From positions 1 through 64,000 of the forward strand of contig JAUHYW010000007.1 in the NCBI GenBank assembly GCA_030426085.1: a stretch of 64,000 nt of DNA. Reading direction: 5' to 3'. Numbering within the stretch: the first letter of the stretch is position 1; every line of letters starts with the position of its first letter. This stretch comes from a bacterium. GTDB lineage: Bacteria; Myxococcota_A; Bradymonadia; UBA7976; UBA1532. Below are positions 1 to 41,630 of the stretch, piece after piece. Position numbers and translations under genes: made by a program. The notes beneath the pieces were generated by a model. The model worked only from the letters and a program-made list of their open reading frames with translations, did not search any database and was not told the origin of the DNA.

Positions 1-187
1 TTCCGCCGCAGCCGCTGCGCGCCGACAGAGGCCGCCCCCCGCCTTCGGCCGCAGCCGCTGCGCGCCGACAGAGGCCGCCCCCCGCCTTCGGCCGCAGCCG
101 CTGCTCTTCGACAGAGGCCGCCCCCCGCCTTCCGCCACAGCCGCTGCTCTTCGACAGAGGTCGCCCCCCGCCTTCGGCCGCAGCCGC
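1..187. repeat. 43-bp tandem repeat array (left edge)
   Basis: Four full copies and part of a fifth of a 43-bp unit begin at about 5, 48, 91, 134 and 177. The core of each unit contains CGACAGAGG followed by a C-rich run. The first two copies are identical and the later ones drift by a few bases. The array is cut by the window edge. It lies upstream of the type I restriction operon. Aligned by eye, its core matches the 43/44-bp array at 33.9-35.1 kb in about 19 of 24 columns. Confidence 0.9.
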
Positions 188-618: not shown

Positions 619-2313
619 ATGCGCGAGGCGAGCGGGGAGGCACAGGGCGAGCTGCCATTGGCGGCGGCGGGCGAGCGGCCGCGGCTGACGCTGGCCGGGT
701 TGCAGCGGCACCTGTGGGGGGCGGCGGACATCCTGCGGGGGTCGATCGACTCGGCGGATTACAAGCACTACATCTTCGGGCTGCTGTTCTACAAAAGGCT
801 GAACGACGTCTGGCGCGAGGAGTACGAGGCCCGGCTGGCCGAGTACGCCGACGCGGCGCTGGCCGCCGATCCCGAGGAGCACCGGTTCCATATTCCGCCG
901 GGCTGCTTCTGGGCCGACGTGCGGGAGAAGAGCGTCGACATCGGGACCGAGCTGAACATCGCGCTGCGGGCGATCGAGAACGAGAACCCCCGGCTGGCGG
1001 GGGTCTTCCAGGACGTCGACTTCGCCCACCGCGAGCGATTCCCCGATCACTTGATCGAGGCGCTGTTGCAGCACTTCGAAAAGCATCGGCTGCGGGTGGC
1101 CGACGTGCCGTCGACGATGATGGGGGACGCCTATGAGTACCTGATCGCGGAGTTCGCCGACGACGCGGGCAAGAAGGGCGGCGAGTTCTACACCCCCAAG
1201 GCGGTGGTGCGGCTGATGGTCGAGATCCTGCGGCCGACGCCGGGCATGACGGTCTACGACCCCACCTGCGGGGCGGGCGGCATGCTGCTCGAGGCGGTGC
1301 ACTACATGCAGCGGCGCGGCGAGGACCCCCGGTCGCTGGTGCTGTACGGGCAGGAGAAGAACCTCAACACCTGGGCCATCGGCAAGATGTCGCTGTTTCT
1401 GCACGACATCGACGACGCCTTCGTGGAGCGGGGCGATACGCTGCTCGACCCCAAGCATCTGGCGGCGGACAAGAGCGTGAAGGCGTTCGATCTGGTGCTG
1501 GCCAACCCGCCGTTCTCGCTCAAGGCGTGGGGCCACGAGGTGTGGAAGAAGGGTGATCCCTTCGGGCGGGATGTCTATGGCTGCCCGCCGAAGTCATACG
1601 GTGATCTGGCGTTCGTGCAGCACATGGTGGCGTCGATGGCGCCGGGCGGGCGGATGGCGGTGGTGGTGCCCCACGGGGTGCTGTTCCGGGGCGGGGCCGA
1701 GGGCCGGATCAGGGCCGGGCTGCTGAAGGCCGATCTGGTGGAGGCGGTGGTCGGGCTGGGGCCGAACCTGTTCTTCGGGACGGGCATCCCGGCGGCGGTG
1801 CTGTACCTGAACCGGGCCAAGCCGGCGGCGCGGGCGGGCAAGGTGCTGGTCGTCAACGGGGACAAGGACTTCGCGCCGGGCAAGAAGCAGAATGTGCTGT
1901 CCGGTGCGCATGTGGAGCGGCTGGCGGGCGCGGTGCATGCGTTCGAGGATGTGGATCTGTTCTGCCGGGTGGTCGGGCTGGATGAGCTGGAGGAGAACGG
2001 CTTCAACCTGAACCTGACCCGCTATGTGCAGACCGATCCCCCGCCGCCGCCGATCGACGTGCAGGCCGAGGCGGCGGAGCTGCGGCGGCTGATGGCCGAG
2101 CGGGACGCGGCCGAGGCCCGGATGATGGGCTGGCCGAGGTGCGCTCTGGGATCGCCAAGAACAAGAACCGGGCGCTGGTGGATCCGGTCGAGGTCGCCTA
2201 TCTTCGAGTCGCCAATGTGCAAGACGGCTACCTCGACCTCAGCGACGTCAAGACCATCCCGATCGAGCGGGCCGATATCGAGCGGTTCCGGCTCCGCGTC
2301 GGCGACGTGCTGA
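619..2313 (+). CDS. hsdM: Type I restriction-modification DNA methyltransferase subunit (HsdM), C-terminus out of frame
   Basis: HsdM is the N6-adenine methyltransferase subunit of a type I R-M complex. The N-terminal helical domain (about residues 25-150) precedes the SAM-binding motif DPTCGAGG (214-221) and the catalytic NPPF (296-299). ATG 619 is chosen because homology-like sequence begins there and GAGAGGG precedes it. Family-like sequence continues to about residue 503 (ERDAAEARMM, nt 2127). The frame then runs through hsdS out of frame to a stop at 2313, adding about 60 nonsense residues. The normal hsdM terminus and stop appear deleted. The methyltransferase fold itself is complete, so the protein may still be active. 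Confidence 0.9.
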   Translation: MREASGEAQGELPLAAAGERPRLTLAGLQRHLWGAADILRGSIDSADYKHYIFGLLFYKRLNDVWREEYEARLAEYADAALAADPEEHRFHIPPGCFWADVREKSVDIGTELNIALRAIENENPRLAGVFQDVDFAHRERFPDHLIEALLQHFEKHRLRVADVPSTMMGDAYEYLIAEFADDAGKKGGEFYTPKAVVRLMVEILRPTPGMTVYDPTCGAGGMLLEAVHYMQRRGEDPRSLVLYGQEKNLNTWAIGKMSLFLHDIDDAFVERGDTLLDPKHLAADKSVKAFDLVLANPPFSLKAWGHEVWKKGDPFGRDVYGCPPKSYGDLAFVQHMVASMAPGGRMAVVVPHGVLFRGGAEGRIRAGLLKADLVEAVVGLGPNLFFGTGIPAAVLYLNRAKPAARAGKVLVVNGDKDFAPGKKQNVLSGAHVERLAGAVHAFEDVDLFCRVVGLDELEENGFNLNLTRYVQTDPPPPPIDVQAEAAELRRLMAERDAAEARMMGWPRCALGSPRTRTGRWWIRSRSPIFESPMCKTATSTSATSRPSRSSGPISSGSGSASATC

Positions 2314-2708
2314 TGAACGAGGGTGGCGACATCGACAAGCTGGGGCGCGGCGACATCTGGGCCGGGCAGCTCCCGCTGTGCGTCAACCAGAACCACGTCT
2401 TCGCGGTGCGCTGTGGCGAGCGCCTCGAGCCCGAGTTCTTGTCGTATCTGGCCGAGAGTCCATACGGCAAAGCGTACTTCCTGCGAGCGGGCAAACAGTC
2501 GACGAACCTGGCGTCGATCAACAAGACCCAGCTCCGGGCGCTGCCCGTGTTGCTGCCTCCGATGAGCGAGCAGACCGCCATCGTCGAGCGAATCGACGCC
2601 GTCCAGCGAGCGGTCGAACGATACGAAAGTCAGAGCGAGGGCCTGATGAGACTCAAAGCCGGCCTCCTGCAAGACCTGCTCACCGGCAAGACACGGGTGA
2701 CCCCATGA
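2139..2708 (+). CDS. hsdS: Half-length type I specificity subunit (HsdS), N-terminal part missing
   Basis: HsdS recognises the DNA target and holds HsdM and HsdR together. Normal subunits are about 400-450 residues with two target-recognition domains (TRDs). This one has about 189 residues with a single TRD, from RSGIAKNKNRALVDP through YLRVANVQDGYLDLSDVKT, then the C-terminal conserved helix (LPPMSEQTAIVERID, LLQDLLTGK). The frame is also open upstream, where it reads GLAEV. The only start seen is GTG 2139, without a strong Shine-Dalgarno. It overlaps hsdM in another frame and its TGA overlaps the hsdR ATG. Half-length HsdS proteins can dimerise in known systems, so activity is possible but unproven. 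Confidence 0.8.
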   Translation: MRSGIAKNKNRALVDPVEVAYLRVANVQDGYLDLSDVKTIPIERADIERFRLRVGDVLMNEGGDIDKLGRGDIWAGQLPLCVNQNHVFAVRCGERLEPEFLSYLAESPYGKAYFLRAGKQSTNLASINKTQLRALPVLLPPMSEQTAIVERIDAVQRAVERYESQSEGLMRLKAGLLQDLLTGKTRVTP

Positions 2709-5700
2709 CGACCCCCACCGAAGAGACCCTGGTCGAGCTGCCCGCGATCCGCACCTTGCGGTCGCTCGGCTACCGGGTCATCGATCCCGCCGACCACCCC
2801 ACCCTGCGTCCGCGGGAGAGCGACGTGCTCTTCACCCCGCTGCTCGTCGACGCCCTGATGCGGCTCAACGACATCGACGAGGGCACCGCGCGCAGCCTCG
2901 CGGCGCAGTACGCCGCCATCGACGACAACCAGACGTGGCTGGCGCGGCTGCGCAATCAGTCGTCGCTCAAGCCGCCCGAGGAGCGCGATCACCGCACGAT
3001 GCGGCTGGTCGACTTCGACGACCCCGACAACAACGACTTCGCGGTGACCCGGCAGCTCCGGGTCAGGGGGTCGGCGGTCCGCAAGCCCGATCTGGTGGTC
3101 TACCTCAACGGGGTGCCGGTGGTGGTCATCGAGCTGAAGAGCCCGCTGAGCCCGGCGCAGGACACCTTCGAGGCCATCCAACAGATCCGGTCGGCCGAGC
3201 GCGAGGTGCCCCGGCTCTTCCGCTCGAACCTGTTCAACATCGCCAGCAATGACCTCGCCTTCCGCTTCGGCGCGACGGGGGCTCCGGTCGAGTTCTGGTC
3301 CGACTGGCGCGATCCGTGGCCCCGCGATCGGTCGGAGTTCGCCGACGCGACGGCCCGGGGGCTGTACGCGCTGCTCGAGCCCCGGCGGCTGCTCGACATT
3401 CTGGCCCATTACATCGTCTTCGAGACCCGCGACGGCAAGACGGTGAAGAAGGTGTGTCGCCATCAGCAGTATCGGGCGGTGTCGAAGATGGCGCAGCGGG
3501 TGGCCGAGGGGCGCCACCGGGCGGGGCTGGTGTGGCACACTCAGGGCAGCGGCAAGAGCCTGACGATGGTGTTCGCGGCGCTCAAGCTGAAGCTGCGCCG
3601 GGGCACGGCCGATCCCCGCATGCCCAACCCCGATCTGCTGGTGGTGACCGATCGGGTGGCGCTGCACGATCAGCTCACGAAGACCTTCCACGCGGCGGGC
3701 GTGCCCAACGTGCAGAGCGCCGACGCCATCGATCGGCCGACGGACGCCGAGGGGCGGCCGATCCACCCGCCCGAGGGCAAGAAGGAGACGAAGGTCTATC
3801 TGCGCGAGGCGCTGCGCGCGCCGGGCAATGGGCGGGTGCTGCTGTCGACCATCTTCAAGTTCCATTGGGGCGATGCCCGGCTGACCGAGGGGTCGCCGGC
3901 CGAGCGGGCGGCGGCGCTGGAGGCCCTGGCGGCGCCGGGGTCGGGCGGCTGGATCGTGCTGGTCGACGAGTGTCATCGCACCCAGGAGAAGGATCTGGGG
4001 GCCTATCTGCGGGCCATCCTGCCCGACGCGGTGCGCTTCGGCTTCACCGGCACCCCGGTCGAGAAGGGTGATCGGGATACGTTCGAGAACTTCGGCGCGC
4101 CCGGTGAGCGGTACCTGGACAAGTACGGCATCGACGACGCGGTGGCCGACGGGGCGACGGTCCCGGTGCTGTATCAGGCGCGGTGCACCGAGTGGCACCT
4201 GCACGACATCGGGCTGGACGTCGCCTTCGATCAGCAGTTCGCCGATCTGCCCGAACGGCACCTCGCAGAGCTGAGGCGGCGGGGGGTGACGAAGGGTGAT
4301 GTGGCGCGCCTCGAGTCGCGCATCAAGGTCATCGCGCTCGATATCTGGCTCCACTACACCGCCCATGTGATGCCCGATGGCTACAAGGGTCAGGTGGTGG
4401 CCATCGATCGCCGGGCGTGCGTGGCCTACAAGCAGGCGCTCGATTTCATCATCACGACGTGGCTGGTCGAGTGCGATGGCATGGGCGAGGCCGAGGCGGC
4501 GGCCGCGGCGAAGGCGATGAGCGTGTGCGTCTACAGCCCGGCGCAGCACGACAAGGAGAAGTACCCCGAGCTGGTGGCCTATCAGCTCGATGAGAAGGAG
4601 ACTCAGCGGGCGGTGGACGACTTCCGGGATCCGAGTCATCCGCTGCGGCTGCTCATCGTGTGCAACAAGCTGCTGACCGGCTTCGACGCGCCGGTCGAGC
4701 AGGTGATGTATCTGGACAACCCGCTGACCGATCACAACCTGCTGCAAGCCGTCGCCCGCACGAACCGCGTCTTCACCGGCGGTGGGGGGCGCAAGCCGCA
4801 CGGGATGGTGGTGGATTACATCGGGGTGACGCATAAGCTGGACGCGGCGCTGGCGGCGTATCGCAAGTCGGATGTGGCCGGGGCCCTGCGCGATCACTCG
4901 GCGCTGGCGGGTCGGCTCGCGGCGGCCCATCGGGCGTGCATGGATCTGATCCGCCAGGTGCCGCTGGATGATGATCCGAAGGCGGACGCCCTGGCCATCG
5001 TGCGCCACCTGGGGTCGCTGGATCGGTGGTATCTCTTCCGGGGCGAGGTGGATGGCTTCGTCCGGGCGTATCAGGCGCTGGCCCCCGATTCGCGGGTGCT
5101 GATGTACAAGGGCGATCTGTTGCGGGTGACGGCGGCCATCCCCTACGGGCGGCTGGAGATCGAGAAGGTCGAGCCGGATCCCGACTGGAAGCGCTACAGC
5201 GCCAAGGTGCGGGGCATGCTGCGGGCCCACCTCGAGGTGACCGGGCTGGCGACGACGTGCAAGGTGCGCGATCTGTCCGATCCGCGGTTCATGGACGACT
5301 TCGAGGTCGACGCTCGGGATGAGGCGGCGCTGCATACGGCGGCGGTGCGCAAGCTGACCGAGCTGAAGTCGATCACCCGCGAGCGGGCGGCGCTGGATCC
5401 GGCGCGCTACGGCAAGTTCAGCGATCGGGTGAAGCAGCTCATCCGCGATTTCGAGATGGGGGTCGTCGACGAGCGGGCGGTGCTGACGGAGGCCCGCTCG
5501 CTCGTGGATGGGGTGCAGGGTGAAGACCGGGCGCACCTGGGCACCGGGCTGGGGCCGCGGGCGTATTCGATCGCGATGATCCTGCGCCAGTTCGCGCCGG
5601 CGGGCGCTGGGGGTGCCGGGGGCGCTGAGGGCGCTGAGGGCGCTGAGGGCGCTGAGGGCGCCGGGGGTTCGGGTCCGTCGGCGCTGGCCGAGGCGGCGGC

Positions 5701-5896
5701 GGCGATCGACGCGCTGTACGCTTCGGACGCGTCGGCCCCCCGGCTGTGGCAGGTGCGTGAGGAGCTGCGCCGGGGGCTGCGGCGTCAGGTGCGCCAGTTG
5801 GTCCTGCCGCTGGGGTTGGAGGGCTGGCAGAAGCGGGTGCCCAACGCGGTGGAGGCTTTCGCCCTGCGTCACTACGCGAAGGAAGAGAAGCCATGA
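2705..5896 (+). CDS. hsdR: Type I restriction endonuclease subunit (HsdR)
   Basis: HsdR translocates DNA by ATP hydrolysis and cleaves it. The 1063-residue protein has the N-terminal PD-(D/E)XK nuclease (D129, E143, K145 in KPDLVVYL...VVIELKS), Walker A HTQGSGKS (278-285), DECH (421-424), TGTP (448-451) and motif VI QAVARTNR (near 680). A C-terminal assembly domain follows. ATG 2705 overlaps the hsdS stop as ATGA and matches family N-termini. Near residue 970 lies a low-complexity Gly/Ala/Glu stretch made by a 9-bp DNA repeat (about 5613-5667). All catalytic motifs are present, so this subunit looks intact although its HsdS partner is truncated. Confidence 0.95.
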   Translation: MTTPTEETLVELPAIRTLRSLGYRVIDPADHPTLRPRESDVLFTPLLVDALMRLNDIDEGTARSLAAQYAAIDDNQTWLARLRNQSSLKPPEERDHRTMRLVDFDDPDNNDFAVTRQLRVRGSAVRKPDLVVYLNGVPVVVIELKSPLSPAQDTFEAIQQIRSAEREVPRLFRSNLFNIASNDLAFRFGATGAPVEFWSDWRDPWPRDRSEFADATARGLYALLEPRRLLDILAHYIVFETRDGKTVKKVCRHQQYRAVSKMAQRVAEGRHRAGLVWHTQGSGKSLTMVFAALKLKLRRGTADPRMPNPDLLVVTDRVALHDQLTKTFHAAGVPNVQSADAIDRPTDAEGRPIHPPEGKKETKVYLREALRAPGNGRVLLSTIFKFHWGDARLTEGSPAERAAALEALAAPGSGGWIVLVDECHRTQEKDLGAYLRAILPDAVRFGFTGTPVEKGDRDTFENFGAPGERYLDKYGIDDAVADGATVPVLYQARCTEWHLHDIGLDVAFDQQFADLPERHLAELRRRGVTKGDVARLESRIKVIALDIWLHYTAHVMPDGYKGQVVAIDRRACVAYKQALDFIITTWLVECDGMGEAEAAAAAKAMSVCVYSPAQHDKEKYPELVAYQLDEKETQRAVDDFRDPSHPLRLLIVCNKLLTGFDAPVEQVMYLDNPLTDHNLLQAVARTNRVFTGGGGRKPHGMVVDYIGVTHKLDAALAAYRKSDVAGALRDHSALAGRLAAAHRACMDLIRQVPLDDDPKADALAIVRHLGSLDRWYLFRGEVDGFVRAYQALAPDSRVLMYKGDLLRVTAAIPYGRLEIEKVEPDPDWKRYSAKVRGMLRAHLEVTGLATTCKVRDLSDPRFMDDFEVDARDEAALHTAAVRKLTELKSITRERAALDPARYGKFSDRVKQLIRDFEMGVVDERAVLTEARSLVDGVQGEDRAHLGTGLGPRAYSIAMILRQFAPAGAGGAGGAEGAEGAEGAEGAGGSGPSALAEAAAAIDALYASDASAPRLWQVREELRRGLRRQVRQLVLPLGLEGWQKRVPNAVEAFALRHYAKEEKP
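5613..5667 (+). repeat. 9-bp tandem repeat inside hsdR
   Basis: About five copies of GAGGGCGCT stand in tandem and are read in frame as repeated Gly-Ala-Glu. Because the unit is a multiple of three, copy-number changes would keep the frame. It lies in a linker before the last ~90 residues of HsdR. Confidence 0.8.
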
Positions 5897-6618
5897 GCGG
5901 TGTGCTTCACATCGGCGAGCTGAGCGTCCCCTACGCGGTGAGGGCGTCGGCCCGCGCCCGGCGCAAGCGCATCGAGGCGACGGCCGACGGGGTGCGGGTG
6001 GTGGTGCCCGAGGGGACCCCGCCGGGCGAGGTGGCGGCGTTCGTCGAGGCCCGGCGGCGGTGGGTGTTCGACGCGGTGCAGGCGGCGGCCGAGCGGCGGC
6101 GCATGATGCGGGTTCAGCGGTACGCCTCGGGGGCGAAGCTTCAGTATCGCGGGCGCTGGCTGATGCTCGAGGTGGCGCCGGGTCGGGTCGAGGCGGCGCG
6201 GGTGGTCTGTCGGTCGCGGTTCCAGGTGACGGTGCCCGAGGGGCTGGACGGGCCGGCGCAGGCCGAGGCGGCCCGGGCGGCGCTGGATGGCTGGCTGCGC
6301 GATCGGGCGCTGCGCGCGCTCCGCCGCTTCGCCCGGGTGCACGCGGCGGGGCTGGGGGTGGCGCCGGCGGGGGCGCGGCTGTCGGAGAGCCGGTCGCGCT
6401 GGGGGTCGTGCGGTCGGGATGGTGTCATCCGGGTGCATTGGCGGCTGGTTCAGGCGCCGACGGCGGCGATGGAGTATGTGGTGGCCCATGAGCTCGCGCA
6501 TCTGATCGAGCGGCATCACGGTCCGGCGTTCTGGGCGACGCTGGCCCGCACGCTGCCCGATTGGGCGCTGCGCAAGTCGATGCTCGAGCGGTGGGAGTCG
6601 GCGCCCCGGGCGGTGTGA
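5893..6618 (+). CDS. DUF45/YgjP-SprT-like zinc metallopeptidase (M48-like)
   Basis: This 241-residue protein has the layout of COG1451 (YgjP/DUF45): a basic beta-rich N-terminus, a central helical part (ESRSRWGSC), and the zinc motif HELAH at 199-203 followed by ERHHGPAFW, which supplies the third ligand. Start ATG 5893 overlaps the hsdR stop as ATGA, so it is translationally coupled and is the last gene of the type I operon. Members of this family are often found at the ends of type I R-M operons; the role there is not established, and protein turnover or autoimmunity control would be guesses. No signal peptide is seen, so it is probably cytoplasmic. Confidence 0.85.
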   Translation: MSGVLHIGELSVPYAVRASARARRKRIEATADGVRVVVPEGTPPGEVAAFVEARRRWVFDAVQAAAERRRMMRVQRYASGAKLQYRGRWLMLEVAPGRVEAARVVCRSRFQVTVPEGLDGPAQAEAARAALDGWLRDRALRALRRFARVHAAGLGVAPAGARLSESRSRWGSCGRDGVIRVHWRLVQAPTAAMEYVVAHELAHLIERHHGPAFWATLARTLPDWALRKSMLERWESAPRAV

Positions 6619-33848: not shown

Positions 33849-35115
33849 CGACCCACTGGCTCGGCGGTGTACCACGAGGCGCCGCGCCGGTGAAACGGCC
33901 GGAGGCCGCTCGCCGCGCTCACCGTCGCGCCCGGCCACCGACCCGAGGTGCTGCCTCGCTTCTCCGAACACGCCCGACCACCTCCCGGAGGTCCCTCGCC
34001 GCGTTCGTCGTCGCGCGCGCACCACCTCCCGGAGGTGCTTCCGCCGGTCTCGTTCTTCGAGCCCCCCACCGACCCGAGGCGGTCCCCCGCTGCTCGACCA
34101 TCGGCCCGACCACCAACCCGAGGCGCCCCCACGAGAACCGCGCCGCGCCCAACCACCGACCGGAGGTGCTGCCGCCCTCCTCGCCGTTCGCCCGCACCAC
34201 CGACCGGAGGTCCCTCGCCGCGCTCGCCGTCGCGCTCGACCGCCTCTGCTCGGCGGTCGAGCGCATCTCGGCTCTCGACCCCCCCACCGACCCGAGCGAC
34301 CTGCGCGAACCCGCCGCCGCGTCAGACCACCGGCCGGAGGGGGTCGAGCGCGTCTCGGCTCTCGACCCCCCCACCGGGCCGAGCGACCTGCGCGAGCTCG
34401 CCAGCGCGCGCCACCACCGAAGCGAGGCGGATCTGTGCGCGCAGCGTCGCGCCCGACCACCGACCCGAGGCGGTCCCCCGCTGCTCGACCATCGGCCCGA
34501 CCACCGACCCGAGGCGCCCCCACGAGAACCGCGCCGCGCCCAACCACCGACCCGAGGCGGTCCCCCCCTGCTCGACCGTCGGTCCGACCACCGACCCGAG
34601 GCGCCCCCACGAGAACCGCGCCGCGCCCAACCACCGACCCGAGGCGGTCCCCGCCTGCTCGACCGTCGGCCCGACCACCGACCCGAGGCGCCCCCACGAG
34701 AACCGCGCCGCGCCAAACCACCGACCCGAGGCGGTCCCCTGCTGCTCGACCATCGGCCCGACCACCGACCCGAGGCGCCCCCACGAGACCCGCGCCGCGC
34801 CCAACCACCGACCCGAGGCACCACCGCGAGGGCTGGGCCGCGCCAAGCCACCGGCCCGAGGCGCCTCCCCCCGCTTCGGGAACCCGCTCGACCGCCTCTC
34901 CGAGGTGATTTCGCCCGCTGTGGCGCGCCGAACTGCCCCCGGAGGGCGGTCCCGGCGCCCATCGTCACGCCGATCTGCCTCGGGAGGGTCCTGCCGGCGC
35001 CTGCCGACGCGCCGATCCGCCTCGAGAGGGTCCGCCCCGCGCGGGTCGAGGGCTCGATCCGCCTCCCGAGGGTGATCACCGTCGCCGGGACCCACCGCGC
35101 CGCCGGTCGGAGGTG
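33849..35115. repeat. Phased 43/44-bp interspersed repeat array (about 29 units)
   Basis: A 14-bp box, CCACCGACCCGAGG or a close variant, begins at 23 positions from 33935 to 34892, spaced 43 or 44 bp without a break; eleven copies are exact. Degenerate boxes extend the array to about 33849 on the left and about 35113 on the right. The 29-30 bp between boxes differ among many units. Some boxes are self-complementary (CACCTCCCGGAGGTG). Frames stay open on both strands only because the composite period is divisible by three, and the translations look non-coding. The array ends about 50 bp from the hsdR stop codon. Confidence 0.93.
34457..34847. repeat. Higher-order 87-bp tandem repeat within the array
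   Basis: Nine consecutive units alternate between two interbox sequences: one starting CGGTCCCC (44-bp unit) and one starting CGCCCCCACGAGA (43-bp unit). They form four near-identical 87-bp dimers plus one extra box. The same pair occurs once earlier at 34066-34152, separated from the main block, so segments of the array have been duplicated and shuffled. Confidence 0.9.
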
Positions 35116-35162: not shown

Positions 35163-38100
35163 TCAGGGGACGCCCGCCGGCTCACCGGCCGCGTGACGCA
35201 GCCGACCGTAGACCAGATCCAGCATCAGCTCCCGGAACGCCTGCCCGAACGCCGCGTCATCGTAGATGTGGGTCACGAACGCGCTGTGCCGCCCCACCCG
35301 ATCGAAGCTGTCGATCAAGACGTCGTCCAGCTCGGGCCCGAAGACGTGGCGGAAGTTGGCCTTGTCGTTGACCCGCGCCGCCTGCTGCAAGTCGCCGTCA
35401 CCCACCAGGCGCTCGGCCATCTCGTCGACGAGATCCTGAGCCTCGAAGTCGGTCGCGAAGCGGGTGTTGAGCGCCTCGATGATCGCCGACAGCTTCTCCA
35501 TCGGCGCCGCCCCGCCGCCGGTGCCGGTCGCGGTCGGCCCCTTGAGCTCACCCGGCTCGCCCTTCGCCATCAGCAGATCGCCCTGGGCCATCTTCTTGAT
35601 CTTCAGCGACTTCAGCGAGATGCCGTCACCCAGATCGATCGGGCCGCTGTCGGGCGGCCGGGGCAGCTTGCGGGCCAGCATGCGGGCGAAGACGTAGAGC
35701 TGCTCCAGGCGTGCGTCGGGGAACGGCACCACCTGGGCCATGAAGCCGTACAGGTTGACGAAGGCGCCCAACTGACCGCGGAATCGGCCCTGGGCCTCTT
35801 CCCCACCCTCGGCGTCGGCCAGGGCGACGAAGCGATCGACGGCCGGATCGAGCCAGTGGTTCAGCTCGCCGTGGTCGGCGATGTCGGCGTCGGGCTTCAG
35901 CGCGAAGAAGACCGCCGCGAAGCCCTGCACCTCGGACGCCGTCCACACCCGGGCCTGCTCGAGATCGTGCACCAGCCCGTAGAGCCGCTGGGGGTCGACC
36001 GCCTCGGCGATCGTCGTCGACTCGTAGTAGGCCTGGAAGCTCTTCAGGATGTCTTCGCGCCGGTTGACGAAGTCGAGCACCCGGGTCTGCTTGCCGGGGA
36101 AGCGCCGGTTCAACCGGGACAGCGTCTGCACCGCCTGGATGCCGTTCAGCCGCTTGTCGACGTACATCGCGCACAGCCGGGGCTCGTCGAAGCCCGTCTG
36201 GTACTTGCTGGCCACGATCAGCAACCGGAACGCCTTCGAGGCGAAGCGCTCGGGCAGGGCCGTCTCGGGGATGCCGCCGTTCATACCCGGCTCGGTGTAC
36301 GCCTCGCCCGGGATGTCGGGGTCCTTCACCTCGCCGGAGAACGCCGCCAGGCAGCCGATGGCGTAGCCCCGCTCGGAGATGTAGGCGTCGAACGCCTGCC
36401 GGTAGCGCACCGCCATCAGCCGGGAGTCGGTGACCACCATCGCCTTGGCCCGCCCGTCGAGCAGGTGGGCGACATGCGCCCGAAAGTGCTCGATGATGAT
36501 CGCCGCCTTCTGGCGGATGTGCTCGGGGTGCAGGTTGACGTAGCGGATCAGCGCCGCGGCGGCCTTGCGCTTGTCGACATCGGGGTCGCTGCCGAGGGCC
36601 TTCTGCAGCTTGTAGAAGCGCTGCCAGGTCACATAGCCCTTCAGCACGTCGACGATGAAGCCCTCTTCGATGGCCTGCCGCATCGAGTACAGGTGGAACG
36701 GCGCCGGCTTGCCGTCGTCGCCGGTGTGCCCGAAGATCACCAGGGTCTTGTACTTGGGCGTCGCGGTGAACGCGAAGAAGCTGAGGTTGCCGAGCGGCCG
36801 GCGCAGGATGGCGACCCGCAGGGCGAGCTGACCCGGCTCGGTCAGGACCTCGCCGTCGTCGATGGCCTCGGCGACCTCGGCCTCGACCTGGGCGTCGACC
36901 GCGCCGTCGGCGAGCAGGGCCCGCACGTCGAGCGCCATGTCGCCGGTCTGCGAGCTGTGGGCCTCGTCGACGATGACCGCGTAGCGCCGGTCGGGCAGCG
37001 CCGCGATCTTGTCGTGCAGGTAGCCGAACTTGTGGATCGTGCTGATGATGATCGGCACGCCCTTGGCCAGCGCCGCGGCGAGCTGCTTGGAGTGCTTGTC
37101 GACCTTCTCGACCACCCCGTCTTCGTGGTCGAACTGGAAGATCGTGTCTTGGAGCTGCTTGTCGAGCACCCGGCGATCGGTCAGCACGATGACCGAGTCG
37201 AAGACCTTGCGATCGTCGGCCCCGTGCAGGCTCGACAGCCGGTGGGCCAGCCACGCGATGGAGTTCGACTTGCCCGAGCCGGCCGAGTGCTGCACGAGGT
37301 AGTGATGCCCGGCCCCGTCGGCCCGCGCCGCGTCGACCAGCCGCCGCACGCAGTCGAGCTGGTGGTAGCGGGGGAAGATCACCCGCTCGGAGGTCGTGAC
37401 CTTGCCGGTGTCGGGGTCGGTCTCGACCTTGCGCTCGAGGTGCACGAAGCGGCGCACGAGGTCGAGCAGGCTCGCCCGGGGCCAGACCTCTTCCCACAGG
37501 TACGCCGTGCGCTGCTTGCCTTCGACGGGCGGGTTGCCCGCCCCGTGGCCGTGGCCCCGGTCGAACGGCAGGAAGACGGTCTTCGAGCCGCGCAGCCGGG
37601 TGGTCATCTTCACGCGCTCGGTGTCGACCGCGAAGTGCACCAGCGCCCGCGCCTTCCAGCGGAACAGCGGCGCGTGGGGATCGCGGCCGCGGTACTGCTT
37701 CACCGCGTGGGCGACCGTCTGCCCGGTGAGGGCGTTCTTCAGCTCGGCGGTGGCCACCGGCACGCCGTTGACGAACAGCGCGAGGTCGACCGACCGATCG
37801 CTGTCGGGGTCGAAGTGGAGTTGGCGGACCACGGTCAGCCGGTTGGCGGCGTAGCGGGCCTGGACGGCCGGGTTGCGGCCGTGGGTCGGGGCGAAGTACG
37901 CCATGCGCACGGTCTTGGCGTAGAAGTCGAAGCCATGCCGCAGGACGTGCAGGGTGCCCTGCTTGTCGAGGGCCCCGGCCAGCGCGGCGGCGAAGGTCTC
38001 GGGCAGGTCGGCGCCGAAGTGGCCCGCCCACTTCGCCCACTTCCTGGGTTGGGTGGCTTTGACGAAGGCGACGGCGGCGTCGGGCAGCAGCGCCCGGGCC

Positions 38101-38198
38101 CGGTCGTAGTCGGCGCTGTGGCCCCGGCCGTAGCCGGCGTGGGTGACGAGGTGGTGCTCGATGGCCTCCTCGAATGCGGTCTCGCTGTGCGCGCTCAT
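35163..38198 (-). CDS. hsdR: Type I restriction endonuclease subunit (HsdR), second system
   Basis: The 1011-residue protein has nuclease residues D138, E152 and K154 (SVDLALFVNG...ATAELKN), Walker A HSAGSGKS (304-311), DEAH (411-414) and FTATPK. The helicase C-terminal part has DKRLNGIQAVQTLSRLNR. A coupling/assembly domain follows to the end. It differs clearly from the other HsdR in the window, in N-terminus and motif II (DEAH against DECH), so this is a different type I family, not a duplicate. It lies 67 bp downstream of hsdS. Its 3' end faces the 43/44-bp repeat array. The gene appears complete. Confidence 0.95.
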   Translation of the reverse strand: MSAHSETAFEEAIEHHLVTHAGYGRGHSADYDRARALLPDAAVAFVKATQPRKWAKWAGHFGADLPETFAAALAGALDKQGTLHVLRHGFDFYAKTVRMAYFAPTHGRNPAVQARYAANRLTVVRQLHFDPDSDRSVDLALFVNGVPVATAELKNALTGQTVAHAVKQYRGRDPHAPLFRWKARALVHFAVDTERVKMTTRLRGSKTVFLPFDRGHGHGAGNPPVEGKQRTAYLWEEVWPRASLLDLVRRFVHLERKVETDPDTGKVTTSERVIFPRYHQLDCVRRLVDAARADGAGHHYLVQHSAGSGKSNSIAWLAHRLSSLHGADDRKVFDSVIVLTDRRVLDKQLQDTIFQFDHEDGVVEKVDKHSKQLAAALAKGVPIIISTIHKFGYLHDKIAALPDRRYAVIVDEAHSSQTGDMALDVRALLADGAVDAQVEAEVAEAIDDGEVLTEPGQLALRVAILRRPLGNLSFFAFTATPKYKTLVIFGHTGDDGKPAPFHLYSMRQAIEEGFIVDVLKGYVTWQRFYKLQKALGSDPDVDKRKAAAALIRYVNLHPEHIRQKAAIIIEHFRAHVAHLLDGRAKAMVVTDSRLMAVRYRQAFDAYISERGYAIGCLAAFSGEVKDPDIPGEAYTEPGMNGGIPETALPERFASKAFRLLIVASKYQTGFDEPRLCAMYVDKRLNGIQAVQTLSRLNRRFPGKQTRVLDFVNRREDILKSFQAYYESTTIAEAVDPQRLYGLVHDLEQARVWTASEVQGFAAVFFALKPDADIADHGELNHWLDPAVDRFVALADAEGGEEAQGRFRGQLGAFVNLYGFMAQVVPFPDARLEQLYVFARMLARKLPRPPDSGPIDLGDGISLKSLKIKKMAQGDLLMAKGEPGELKGPTATGTGGGAAPMEKLSAIIEALNTRFATDFEAQDLVDEMAERLVGDGDLQQAARVNDKANFRHVFGPELDDVLIDSFDRVGRHSAFVTHIYDDAAFGQAFRELMLDLVYGRLRHAAGEPAGVP

Positions 38199-38265: not shown

Positions 38266-39576
38266 TCAGGCGATGTCGAGCTGGCCGGTGACGGCGGCGG
38301 TGATCAGGGATTGGCGGTATTCTGCGAGGAGTTGGACTTCACCAGCAATCCACGCGCATGCGTCGTCGATCTCCGAGGTCACTCGTCTCGCCCACGAGAG
38401 CAACTCTCGTTGAACATCGAGCGGGGGTATAGCCAGCACGAGCTCACCGAGCGTCCCCATGTTCAGGCCGTCCATCGTTGCGCCCTGCGCCCGAAGAGCC
38501 AGGAATTCCTGGGAGCAGTGGGCCAGTATGGCCAGTTGCATGAACCGAGGATGGATGACCCTGTCGCTCGGCCGATAGCGCACGAGTCGAGGGTTCATTA
38601 TGCCGGGCTCCACGTCCGGCGGCACCACCGCGACCCGGCCCACCGTGCCCATGACACTGACCAGGACATCGCCCGGGTGGACTTCATAGCGACGCATTTC
38701 GGCGAACTTCGCATCCGATATGTAATAGTCACCAATCGTGAAATCATCTGGGATGACTTGTTGCTGACCGTAGACCCGGTAGCCGCTGTTCGTGTACATC
38801 GCCTTGGTCAGCGATGAGCCATACGGGCCGGCCATCGCCTCGTCGACGAGGTACTTCAGACGGCGCGTCTCCCAGTGCGCCGGAATCTCGCCGATCCACG
38901 GCACACCCGAGTCCTTCATCGGCACATCGGGGTCGAGCCCCCGGGTCACCGCCCGGTTGATGAGCGCCGCCCGCTTCTCGGCCAGCAGGTCGAGCAGCCG
39001 CTTCTTCTCGTCGATGAGCGCGTCGATAGCGGCGGTCTTCTCGTCGAGGAAGTCCGCGATGACCCGCTGAGCCGAACGAGGCGGGATGGGCAGCAACGCG
39101 TCTTTGATGCCCTGCAAGCCGACGCCGAAGCGGGTCACGCCGTTGGCCGCCAGCCAGAACTGTTCCCGCACGCCCGTGGCCTGGAGAGCGCGAAGAAGAA
39201 AACGCCCTTCGAGCATCGCTGCCACCGGCCGAAGAAGCGTGAGATGGTATCCGCAGACCACACCATCCAACGGCTCGGCCACACAGGCAGGGATCGCGAT
39301 GTCGTCCCACGACTCGGAGTCCTTGGTGATGATCACGTCCCCCGGCCTCAGCGTGAACCGCTCGATCTCCTGACGGGTCGCGGTCGCCCGCATGAGCGGC
39401 ATGTCATCGACGATGTACTCGTTGTAGTACACATCGGTGTAGTTGCAGAGCCGGACCGGCGTGCCATCCTCGTACGACTTCTTGTCGACGTTGCTGTTGT
39501 TGACGTCGGCCACATGCCGCAATCGCTGCGCAGACCACCCGGTGGGCAGGCGGTCGATCCATCCCGGTCGACTCAC
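38266..39576 (-). CDS. hsdS: Type I specificity subunit (HsdS), second system
   Basis: The 436-residue protein has two target-recognition domains with the standard linkers. TRD1 starts LPTGWSAQRLRHVADVNNS, and the central helix is IPPRSAQRVIADFLDEKTAA. A second start SGVPWIGEIPAHWETRRLKY leads TRD2, and the C-terminal helix is IPPLDVQRELLSWARRV. Start GTG 39576 overlaps the hsdM stop as GTGA. TRD1 and TRD2 DNA is noticeably more AT-rich than the rest of the window, as expected for exchangeable recognition domains. It should give this system a bipartite target different from the first one. Confidence 0.92.
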   Translation of the reverse strand: MSRPGWIDRLPTGWSAQRLRHVADVNNSNVDKKSYEDGTPVRLCNYTDVYYNEYIVDDMPLMRATATRQEIERFTLRPGDVIITKDSESWDDIAIPACVAEPLDGVVCGYHLTLLRPVAAMLEGRFLLRALQATGVREQFWLAANGVTRFGVGLQGIKDALLPIPPRSAQRVIADFLDEKTAAIDALIDEKKRLLDLLAEKRAALINRAVTRGLDPDVPMKDSGVPWIGEIPAHWETRRLKYLVDEAMAGPYGSSLTKAMYTNSGYRVYGQQQVIPDDFTIGDYYISDAKFAEMRRYEVHPGDVLVSVMGTVGRVAVVPPDVEPGIMNPRLVRYRPSDRVIHPRFMQLAILAHCSQEFLALRAQGATMDGLNMGTLGELVLAIPPLDVQRELLSWARRVTSEIDDACAWIAGEVQLLAEYRQSLITAAVTGQLDIA

Positions 39577-41630
39577 CCCAACACCCCCGCCAGCATGGTC
39601 TGGATCTTCTCCGCCGCCGCCCGCAGCTCGGCGTCGATCACGTCCAGCGGCCGGGGCGGCGCGTACACATAGAAATACCGGGTGAACGGGATCTCGTACC
39701 CGACCTTCGTCTTCGACGCGTCGACCCAGGCGTCGGGCACGAACGGCAGCACCTCCCGCTGCATATAGCCCGCCACCGACTCGGTCAGCGGCACGTTCTC
39801 GTAGTCCCGCAGGTCGGTGTCCGGCTCGGGTCGGCCCTTCTTCTTGCACACCGCCGCGTCCTCGTTGCGCTCCGACAGCGCGCCGAGCACCGCCCGCAGC
39901 GCGCCCGCGGGGATCTTGACCCCCTGCTTCTTCGCCTCGGCCTTCAGCGCCTTCACGAACGGCGGCCGGGCCATGTAGACGGTGTCATCCAAGGCATGCA
40001 GCACCCGGCTGATGGCGTCCTGCAACGCGACGCCGGCCTCGATCGCCTTCTGGCCCGCGGCGCCCTTCTTGCGGCTCTTGGCGAGGTTCTGCCACCCGCG
40101 CTCGTCCTCCAGCCGGGCGATGCGCTCTTCCGAGGCGCAGAAGTCGAGCTTCAGCGGGCGCTCGACGGTGATCCGGCGGAAGCCGAACGCCTCGTTGGGC
40201 AGGACCTTGACCGTCGGGCCGTCTTCGAAGGCGCCGTAGAGCTTCACCAGCGCGGCGGCGTGCTCGGGGGCCAGCTCTTTGCGCTTGTCGCCCAGCGACT
40301 TCCGCATCTTGCGGAACATGTCGCTGCCGTCGATGAGCTGCACCCGCCCCGCCCGCCGAGACGCCTTGCGGTTGGTGACCAGCCAGACATAGGTGCTGAT
40401 GCCGGTGTTGTAGAACATCTGGTCGGGCAGGGCGATGATGGCTTCGAGCCAGTCGTTCTCGATGATCCATCGCCGGATCTCGCTCTCGCCCGAGCCGGCG
40501 GCGCCGGTGAACAGCGGCGAGCCGTTGAAGACGATGGCCAGCCGGCTGCCGCCCTTCTCGGGGTCGCGCATCTTGCTGAGCATGTGCAGCAGGAAGAGCA
40601 GCGATCCGTCGTTCTTGCGGGGCAGCCCGGGGCCGAAGCGCCCGGCGTGGCCCCGCTCGTGCTCGGCGCGCACCGGGCCGTCGACCTTCGACCAGTCGAC
40701 GCCGAACGGTGGGTTCGAGATGAGGTAGTCCGCCTTCAGCTCGGGCAGGCCGTCCCGGCTGAACGAGTTGCCCAGCTTGATGTTCTCCGACCGCTGGCCC
40801 TTGATGAGCATGTCGGCCTTGCAGATGGCATAGGACTCGGGGTTGAGCTCCTGCCCGAAGACCTCGAGGCTCGCGGCGGCGTTGAGCCGGGCCAGGTGCT
40901 CTTCGGCGACCGAGAGCATGCCCCCGGTGCCGCAGGCCGGGTCGTACATGGTGCGCACCACCCTCGGCTTCTTGAGCAGCTCGTCGTCTTCGGCGAAGAG
41001 CAGATCGACCATCAGCCCGATGACTTCGCGGGGGGTGAAGTGCTCGCCGGCGGTCTCGTTGCTCTGCTCGGAGAACTTCCGGATCAGCTCTTCGAAGATG
41101 TACCCCATCTGGTGGTTGGTGACATTGGGCTCGGGCTGGCCGTCGGCGCCTTCCACCACGGCGCCGGTCTTGTCGCGGCGGTAGGGGTCGAGGTCGAAAG
41201 CGAGGACGCTGCGGGCCACCTTGTACAGCAGCCGGGCCTTGGCCAGCCGCTCGATCTGCGCCTGGAACCGGAAGTTGGCCATGATGTCGCGCACGTTCTG
41301 CGAGAAGCCGACGACGTAGGCTTCGAGGTCGGCGGCGACCTGCTCCTGGCCCTCGACCGCCCGGGTGAAGTCGAGCCGGCTTGTGTTGTAGAACGACAAC
41401 CCTGCGGCCCGCAGCAATACCTTGTGGCGCAGGGGCTCGGGGGTGCGGTCGGCGGGGTGCTTCTCGTCGGCGGCCCATACCTCGGCGCGGGTCGGGCGCA
41501 TGACGAGGTCCAGCCGGCGCAGCACCAGGAAGGGCAGCATCACCCGCCCGTATTCGGACTGCCTGAAGTCCCCGCGCAGCAGGTCGGCCACGCCCCAGAT
41601 CCGGCTGACGATCTCGCTGAAGCCCTGCAT
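39573..41630 (-). CDS. hsdM: Type I DNA methyltransferase subunit (HsdM), second system
   Basis: The 685-residue protein has an N-terminal helical domain, SAM motif DPACGTGG (230-237) and catalytic NPPF (306-309, YLISNPPFGVDW). A long C-terminal region (about 480-685) includes LKLDFCASEERIARLEDERG and GYEIPFTRYFYVYAPPRPLD. The extended C-terminus is typical of the larger HsdM group and not of the first system's ~500-residue subunit. GGAGG precedes ATG 41630. It is the first gene of hsdM-hsdS-hsdR on the minus strand and is divergent from the surface protein gene at 41811. Confidence 0.95.
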   Translation of the reverse strand: MQGFSEIVSRIWGVADLLRGDFRQSEYGRVMLPFLVLRRLDLVMRPTRAEVWAADEKHPADRTPEPLRHKVLLRAAGLSFYNTSRLDFTRAVEGQEQVAADLEAYVVGFSQNVRDIMANFRFQAQIERLAKARLLYKVARSVLAFDLDPYRRDKTGAVVEGADGQPEPNVTNHQMGYIFEELIRKFSEQSNETAGEHFTPREVIGLMVDLLFAEDDELLKKPRVVRTMYDPACGTGGMLSVAEEHLARLNAAASLEVFGQELNPESYAICKADMLIKGQRSENIKLGNSFSRDGLPELKADYLISNPPFGVDWSKVDGPVRAEHERGHAGRFGPGLPRKNDGSLLFLLHMLSKMRDPEKGGSRLAIVFNGSPLFTGAAGSGESEIRRWIIENDWLEAIIALPDQMFYNTGISTYVWLVTNRKASRRAGRVQLIDGSDMFRKMRKSLGDKRKELAPEHAAALVKLYGAFEDGPTVKVLPNEAFGFRRITVERPLKLDFCASEERIARLEDERGWQNLAKSRKKGAAGQKAIEAGVALQDAISRVLHALDDTVYMARPPFVKALKAEAKKQGVKIPAGALRAVLGALSERNEDAAVCKKKGRPEPDTDLRDYENVPLTESVAGYMQREVLPFVPDAWVDASKTKVGYEIPFTRYFYVYAPPRPLDVIDAELRAAAEKIQTMLAGVLG

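Follow-up and report, generated by a model that had tools for sequence, protein, structure and literature searches.

The genome analysed (G000), which its MYXO-CTERM-like protein ends and the kind of genomes related to it place in the Myxococcota, comprises 10.1 Mb in 178 contigs with a GC content of 73%, and the window is the whole stretch of 64,000 nucleotides at the start of one of these contigs (G000:C17:1-64000). A phased array of short boxes lies in it between a type I restriction-modification (R-M) operon and a gene for a PP-loop ATPase, as follows:

1-187, forward strand: second 43-bp array, inside which the contig begins
32860-33675, reverse strand: gene for a PP-loop (TtcA/TilS-like) ATPase, on the other side of the main array from hsdR
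33849-33934, forward strand: degenerate left edge, in which the boxes are weak (5 mismatches)
33935-34905, forward strand: main phased array, in which the 14-bp box CCACCGACCCGAGG or a variant of it occupies 23 positions
34444-34819, forward strand: 87-bp higher-order repeat in which two spacer types alternate, 4.3 copies at 95% match
34906-35115, forward strand: degenerate right edge of the array, period of about 42 bp at 34926-35042
35163-38198, reverse strand: hsdR, type I restriction subunit, 3′ end toward the array
38266-39513, reverse strand: hsdS, in the same operon as hsdR
39573-41630, reverse strand: hsdM, in the same operon as hsdR and hsdS

The genes nearest to the main array encode the PP-loop ATPase, a glycosyltransferase, HsdR, HsdS and HsdM, and an MFS transporter. 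In the sister genome G001, polA adjoins the orthologous PP-loop gene on its upstream side, and both the array and the R-M genes are absent. The preliminary description had placed the array beside the R-M operon. Indeed, hsdR is followed by arrays both here and on contig C50, and the array at the window start precedes hsdM and hsdR, but the association is not specific: arrays also adjoin many ordinary genes, an R-M neighbour does not define them, and the most consistent partner is a protein family, U, described below. The array at 1-187 is probably continuous with one at the end of contig C61, to which it is 85% identical, and is followed at 619-6618 by a second type I R-M operon (HsdM, HsdR and a YgjP-like metallopeptidase). 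ARAGORN places a tRNA-Leu at 5602-5686, inside the second hsdR and over a 9-bp tandem repeat, which is probably a false call. Elsewhere in the genome, an 87-bp array lies 3′ of the DarG antitoxin gene darG on C38 (L191:1-1721), which together with the arrays behind hsdR genes hints at a possible association with defence genes.

When up to four mismatches to CCACCGACCCGAGG are allowed, 22 boxes are found between 33935 and 34905, separated by ten steps of 43 bp, ten of 44 bp and one of 87 bp. The long step crosses a degenerate box near 34241, so that the total is 23 positions, with spacers of 29-30 bp, and one further weak match stands to the right of the main array at 35092. The layout first reported, namely 23 boxes at 43 or 44 bp, degenerate boxes on both sides and an 87-bp higher-order repeat made of recurring spacer pairs, is thus confirmed, apart from the one degenerate position. 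The 87-bp repeat is a recent amplification. Only 13 exact copies of CCACCGACCCGAGG exist in the 10.1-Mb genome, 11 of them in this array and two in a related array on C31; with one mismatch there are 39 sites, against 7 for a reversed-pattern control. The array has a GC content of 77% and is traversed by long open frames on both strands, and our analysis agrees with the preliminary description that it is noncoding.

The stretches between boxes do vary as spacers would. Units whose spacers have diverged to an identity of 0.43, close to the 0.34 expected at random, still agree at 0.88 in the box, and yet their spacers are invariably 29 or 30 bp long. Tandem copies under neutral decay would be expected to lose the box, the spacer sequence and the spacing together, whereas here the box and the length persist. 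Nothing else in the window speaks as strongly for constraint as the conserved box together with the fixed spacer length.

This array is not unique, since the same genome and its relatives carry many noncoding arrays with periods of 42-44 bp or multiples of that. Further arrays in G000 were found on contigs C31, C50, C11, C78, C154, C12, C27, C35, C37, C38, C41 and C43. A survey covered G000, its congener G001 and G006 of the same family, in sequence chosen for the most part by contig number. The 40 noncoding tandem arrays sampled included 22 whose period was at least 40 bp; among these, and so among all 40, there were 18 with periods of 41-44, 85-87 or 127-131 bp, although their sequences are unrelated. 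Arrays inside genes showed the usual spread of multiples of three in the same survey. Because some arrays display just the multiple (87 bp in C35 and C38, 129 bp in C37), a length of about 43 bp acts as the quantum of spacing. What the arrays have in common is geometry, not sequence. Many of them lie at the start or end of a contig, and 478 kb drawn mainly from the interiors of large contigs contained none. Short-read assemblies are therefore probably broken at such arrays and their number underestimated.

Most arrays occupy gaps at the 3′ ends of genes. Those on C31, C50 and C11 start within a few bases of a stop codon, and others sit between convergent genes. C154 carries a pair of oppositely oriented 42-bp arrays that share one sequence and are separated by a few hundred bp (L040:1000-1770). 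A separate dispersed family in G001, with the 34-bp repeat GGGCCTCGACCTGCCCGCCCCCCAGCCTCGTGGG in at least four arrays (L159:1342, L163:706, L171:1219 and L267:3961), is unlike the 43-bp class. When other species were scanned for paired CCTCCCGGAGG boxes, most of the 70 stretches obtained were single or coding matches, and a few were noncoding arrays, stepped at 42-43 or 21-22 bp, from other Myxococcota as well as from Thermoanaerobaculia and Verrucomicrobia. Palindromic noncoding arrays with steps of 21-22 or 42-43 bp were seen in Thermoanaerobaculia, Verrucomicrobia and Polyangium (L087:850-1340, L107:150-360, L073:1-126, L110:5350-5528 and L123:7320-7690), and no U gene lies within those stretches. 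A literature search of partial coverage found no report of such repeats in myxobacteria.

By BLAST, some of these arrays fall into families. The window array groups with those on C31, C50 and C11 and with the array on C78, which lies beside a U gene; the array on C38 groups with the U-linked array on C35, and in G001 that on C20 with the U-linked array on C87. Two U paralogues of G026, 80% identical, share the same box, and the arrays at the related U loci on C27 of G000 and C88 of G001 are 70% identical. From these sequence comparisons, a U-linked ‘home’ array with orphan relatives is a recurring pattern, and the window array is an orphan of the C78 family.

Family U was discovered as the homologous neighbours of the C27 and C78 arrays. 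Its members combine a helical domain, about 230 residues long, with a disordered tail. Searches of Pfam, NCBIfam, PHROGs and PDB sequences gave nothing significant for them, and the protein encoded next to the C35 array belongs to the family as a distant relative (hhalign E 5e-7). Of the 379 Myxococcota genomes sampled, 36 have U, with at most six scored copies in any one of them, and U was not found in phage or plasmid records; no third gene is conserved within 1.5 kb of it. Its predicted structure is a simple bundle of helices (pLDDT 88), and a fold search with it returned generic helical bundles only, below the level that is meaningful for bundles, so the absence of Nop or DNA-binding matches from that search is not evidence. 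No member has a Nop-domain Pfam match at E<=1, a threshold that divergent Tas proteins may escape. The window itself holds no U gene. Two more U-like genes of G000 lie at C17:205903-206205, where the far contig end cuts the gene, and at C162:40048-40833.

U genes are linked to arrays of the 43-bp class far above chance. Starting from a search seeded with the C27 and C78 loci, such an array was found within 1.5 kb at 15 of the 28 U loci with readable flanks, 5′ of the gene at 10 loci and 3′ at 5. None was found at 22 control loci in the family, where the controls for distant U genomes came from other genomes, or at 12 in G000 and G001, where a thirteenth control locus was excluded because it holds the window array itself. 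A more sensitive measure, a 43-bp periodicity score, exceeded all 34 controls at 20 of 27 U loci (p=4e-7, U versus controls), a comparison in which the U flanks may contain more intergenic DNA than the control flanks. The score is also raised at U loci with no detected array (p=0.003), as if decayed arrays there had retained the period. For example, the U protein of G029 is 88% identical to that of G032, and beside its gene, where TRF detects no array, half-sites ACCT...AGGT recur at 42, 43 and 85 bp. Most arrays found in G000 have no adjoining U gene.

The boxes are often dyad-symmetric. With alignment columns permuted, symmetry reaches p<=0.02 in 14 of 21 arrays; it is not significant in those of C31, C61 and C154 and is marginal in the window box (p=0.063). 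The short hairpins first noted in the boxes are not a general property of the window array, and an RNA role is not supported by folding, covariation or Rfam. RNA folds of 26 arrays showed no general excess of stability over shuffled units, RNAalifold on 22 window units gave -0.15 kcal/mol and no compensated pair, and no Rfam family lies inside the window array, the sole match being a chance one outside it. Across all arrays, compensated changes are rare: in the great majority of cases only one arm of the box has changed, which yields no covariation to favour an RNA helix. A symmetric site in double-stranded DNA fits the data better than an RNA stem does.

We favour the reading, poised slightly on the doubtful side of even, that the window array is an orphan of a family of phased putative protein-binding arrays whose candidate binder is U. 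Each unit of 42-44 bp would offer a single box, some 14 bp long and in most arrays with dyad symmetry, and successive boxes would lie about four helical turns apart, so that a dimeric protein could sit on many sites in near register. Several points count against this: the mean spacing, 43.5 bp, does not correspond to an integral number of 10.5-bp turns, the symmetry of the window box is marginal, U shows no recognisable DNA-binding fold, and U genes are missing from the window and from beside most arrays of G000. Many bound sites would build a large nucleoprotein patch, as ParB does on the 43-bp repeats of sopC in the F plasmid. The likeliest binder would be the U protein encoded beside the home array of each box family, and for the window array the candidate is the U gene at G000:C78:19265-20218, which would act in trans. 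The patch might serve chromosome organisation, segregation or silencing at gene ends, while copies of the array would expand and spread in the manner of a satellite. We infer the identity of the binder, its action in trans on orphans and the role of the patch alike, and binding by U is a conjecture.

The nearest known parallel is parS_F/sopC of the F plasmid, in which twelve 43-bp repeats carry ten 16-bp inverted repeats bound by ParB (PMC6238139). Both systems consist of a dozen or so tandem 43-bp units with one short element each, an inverted repeat in sopC and a dyad-symmetric box in most of the present arrays. The spacing is the same, and the symmetry of the window box is marginal where that of most similar arrays is significant. 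In contrast to sopC, the present arrays are chromosomal, many per genome, with differing boxes and no adjoining ParA or ParB, and U has no detectable relation to ParB. Because neither ParA nor ParB is among the genes nearest to the window array, we do not file it as a sopC-type member; by analogy, there is about an even chance that it works like sopC.

The strongest competing explanation, rather doubtful in our judgement, is that the array is a selfish or neutral satellite with no host function, in which slippage or unequal exchange multiplies a unit of 42-44 bp and copies pass from one intergenic site to another. The fixed period would then come from the copying mechanism, and U would be a spreading factor or would merely share unstable regions. 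The recent 87-bp amplification, the related arrays at many loci of one genome and the orthologous ttcA-like locus of G001 without an array all suit this explanation. So does the same glycerate kinase gene, which is flanked by a 43-bp array in both G000 and G001 although the two arrays are unrelated in sequence, as does the preference for gene 3′ ends, where insertions are tolerated. A satellite does not by itself account for the linkage to U, nor for a box and spacer length that outlast the decay of the spacers, and we know of no copying mechanism that fixes 43 bp. Like minisatellites or VNTRs, the arrays are tandem, intergenic, variable in length and recently expanded, but they hold a period of 42-44 bp across unrelated sequences and species, conserve the box and not the spacers, and are linked to one protein family. 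REP/BIME elements with their RAYT genes are likewise palindromic intergenic repeats dispersed in the genome, with a gene beside some copies, but REPs do not form 43-bp phased arrays of 20 units, and no library match identifies U as a Y1/HUH protein. No Y1_Tnp match (RAYT, PF01797; TnpA_REP) was found in the whole genome, whereas control genomes were positive. A protein-binding array and an expanding satellite were both among the candidates first put forward, and both fit, the former the box and the locked spacing, the latter the 87-bp amplification and the dispersal. The preliminary description would have called it an ordinary satellite if arrays were scattered at random over dozens of intergenic regions without transcription or conserved spacing: arrays do occur in many such regions, but spacing is precisely what is conserved.

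Improbable, in our view, is a guide-RNA or structured-RNA array, the transcript of which would be cut into unit-length RNAs carried by U or another protein. The plan of the locus resembles TIGR-Tas, where long tandem arrays lie up- or downstream of one protein gene, here a mostly helical one. TIGR units of about 36 nt contain two alternating repeats of 8-12 nt and two spacers of about 9 nt, the repeat sequence differs between loci as it does here, and the stem-loop subtype has palindromes (PMC12045711). The present units instead have one box and one spacer (29-30 bp in the window, generally about 28 bp), and no Nop protein is encoded beside the window array. The scarcity of compensated changes and the unexceptional folds also weigh against guide RNAs, as do spacers that within one array resemble diverged copies of each other. 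Spacers matched no phage, and a single weak match of 89 bp at 75% fell on a Streptomyces plasmid, at a place with no annotated feature. In CRISPR arrays the repeats measure about 25-36 bp, the spacers are unrelated to one another and cas genes accompany them. A conserved repeat alternating with variable spacers of fixed length is common to both, but the box here is 14 bp and degenerate, spacers recur in order and resemble one another, and no cas gene is among the neighbours, so the initial judgement that this is not a CRISPR was sound. Very improbable are REP/BIME-like hairpin arrays acting as transcription terminators or 3′-UTR stabilisers, for which the starts near stop codons and the sites between convergent genes speak, since U-linked arrays are mostly 5′ of their gene, the window array shows no hairpin gain, gene 3′ ends tolerate any insertion and the genome has no RAYT gene.

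Beyond the window, the protein-binding reading might extend to an undescribed DNA-organising system of Myxococcota, a tentative proposal with the balance somewhat against it. Each U paralogue would read its own box in home and orphan arrays, box and protein would co-evolve, and the spacing of 42-44 bp would stay constant across the phylum. None of the known families tested fits these period-locked arrays with their unnamed protein family, a claim less secure than the observations because the literature coverage is partial and the function putative. If the proposal is true, the arrays would be a multi-copy chromosomal analogue of a plasmid centromere with its own protein, spread over a phylum noted for the great size of its genomes. 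Should U be no more than a passenger, unrelated satellites that share a period of 42-44 bp would still pose a clean and testable problem of how bacterial repeats arise or persist.
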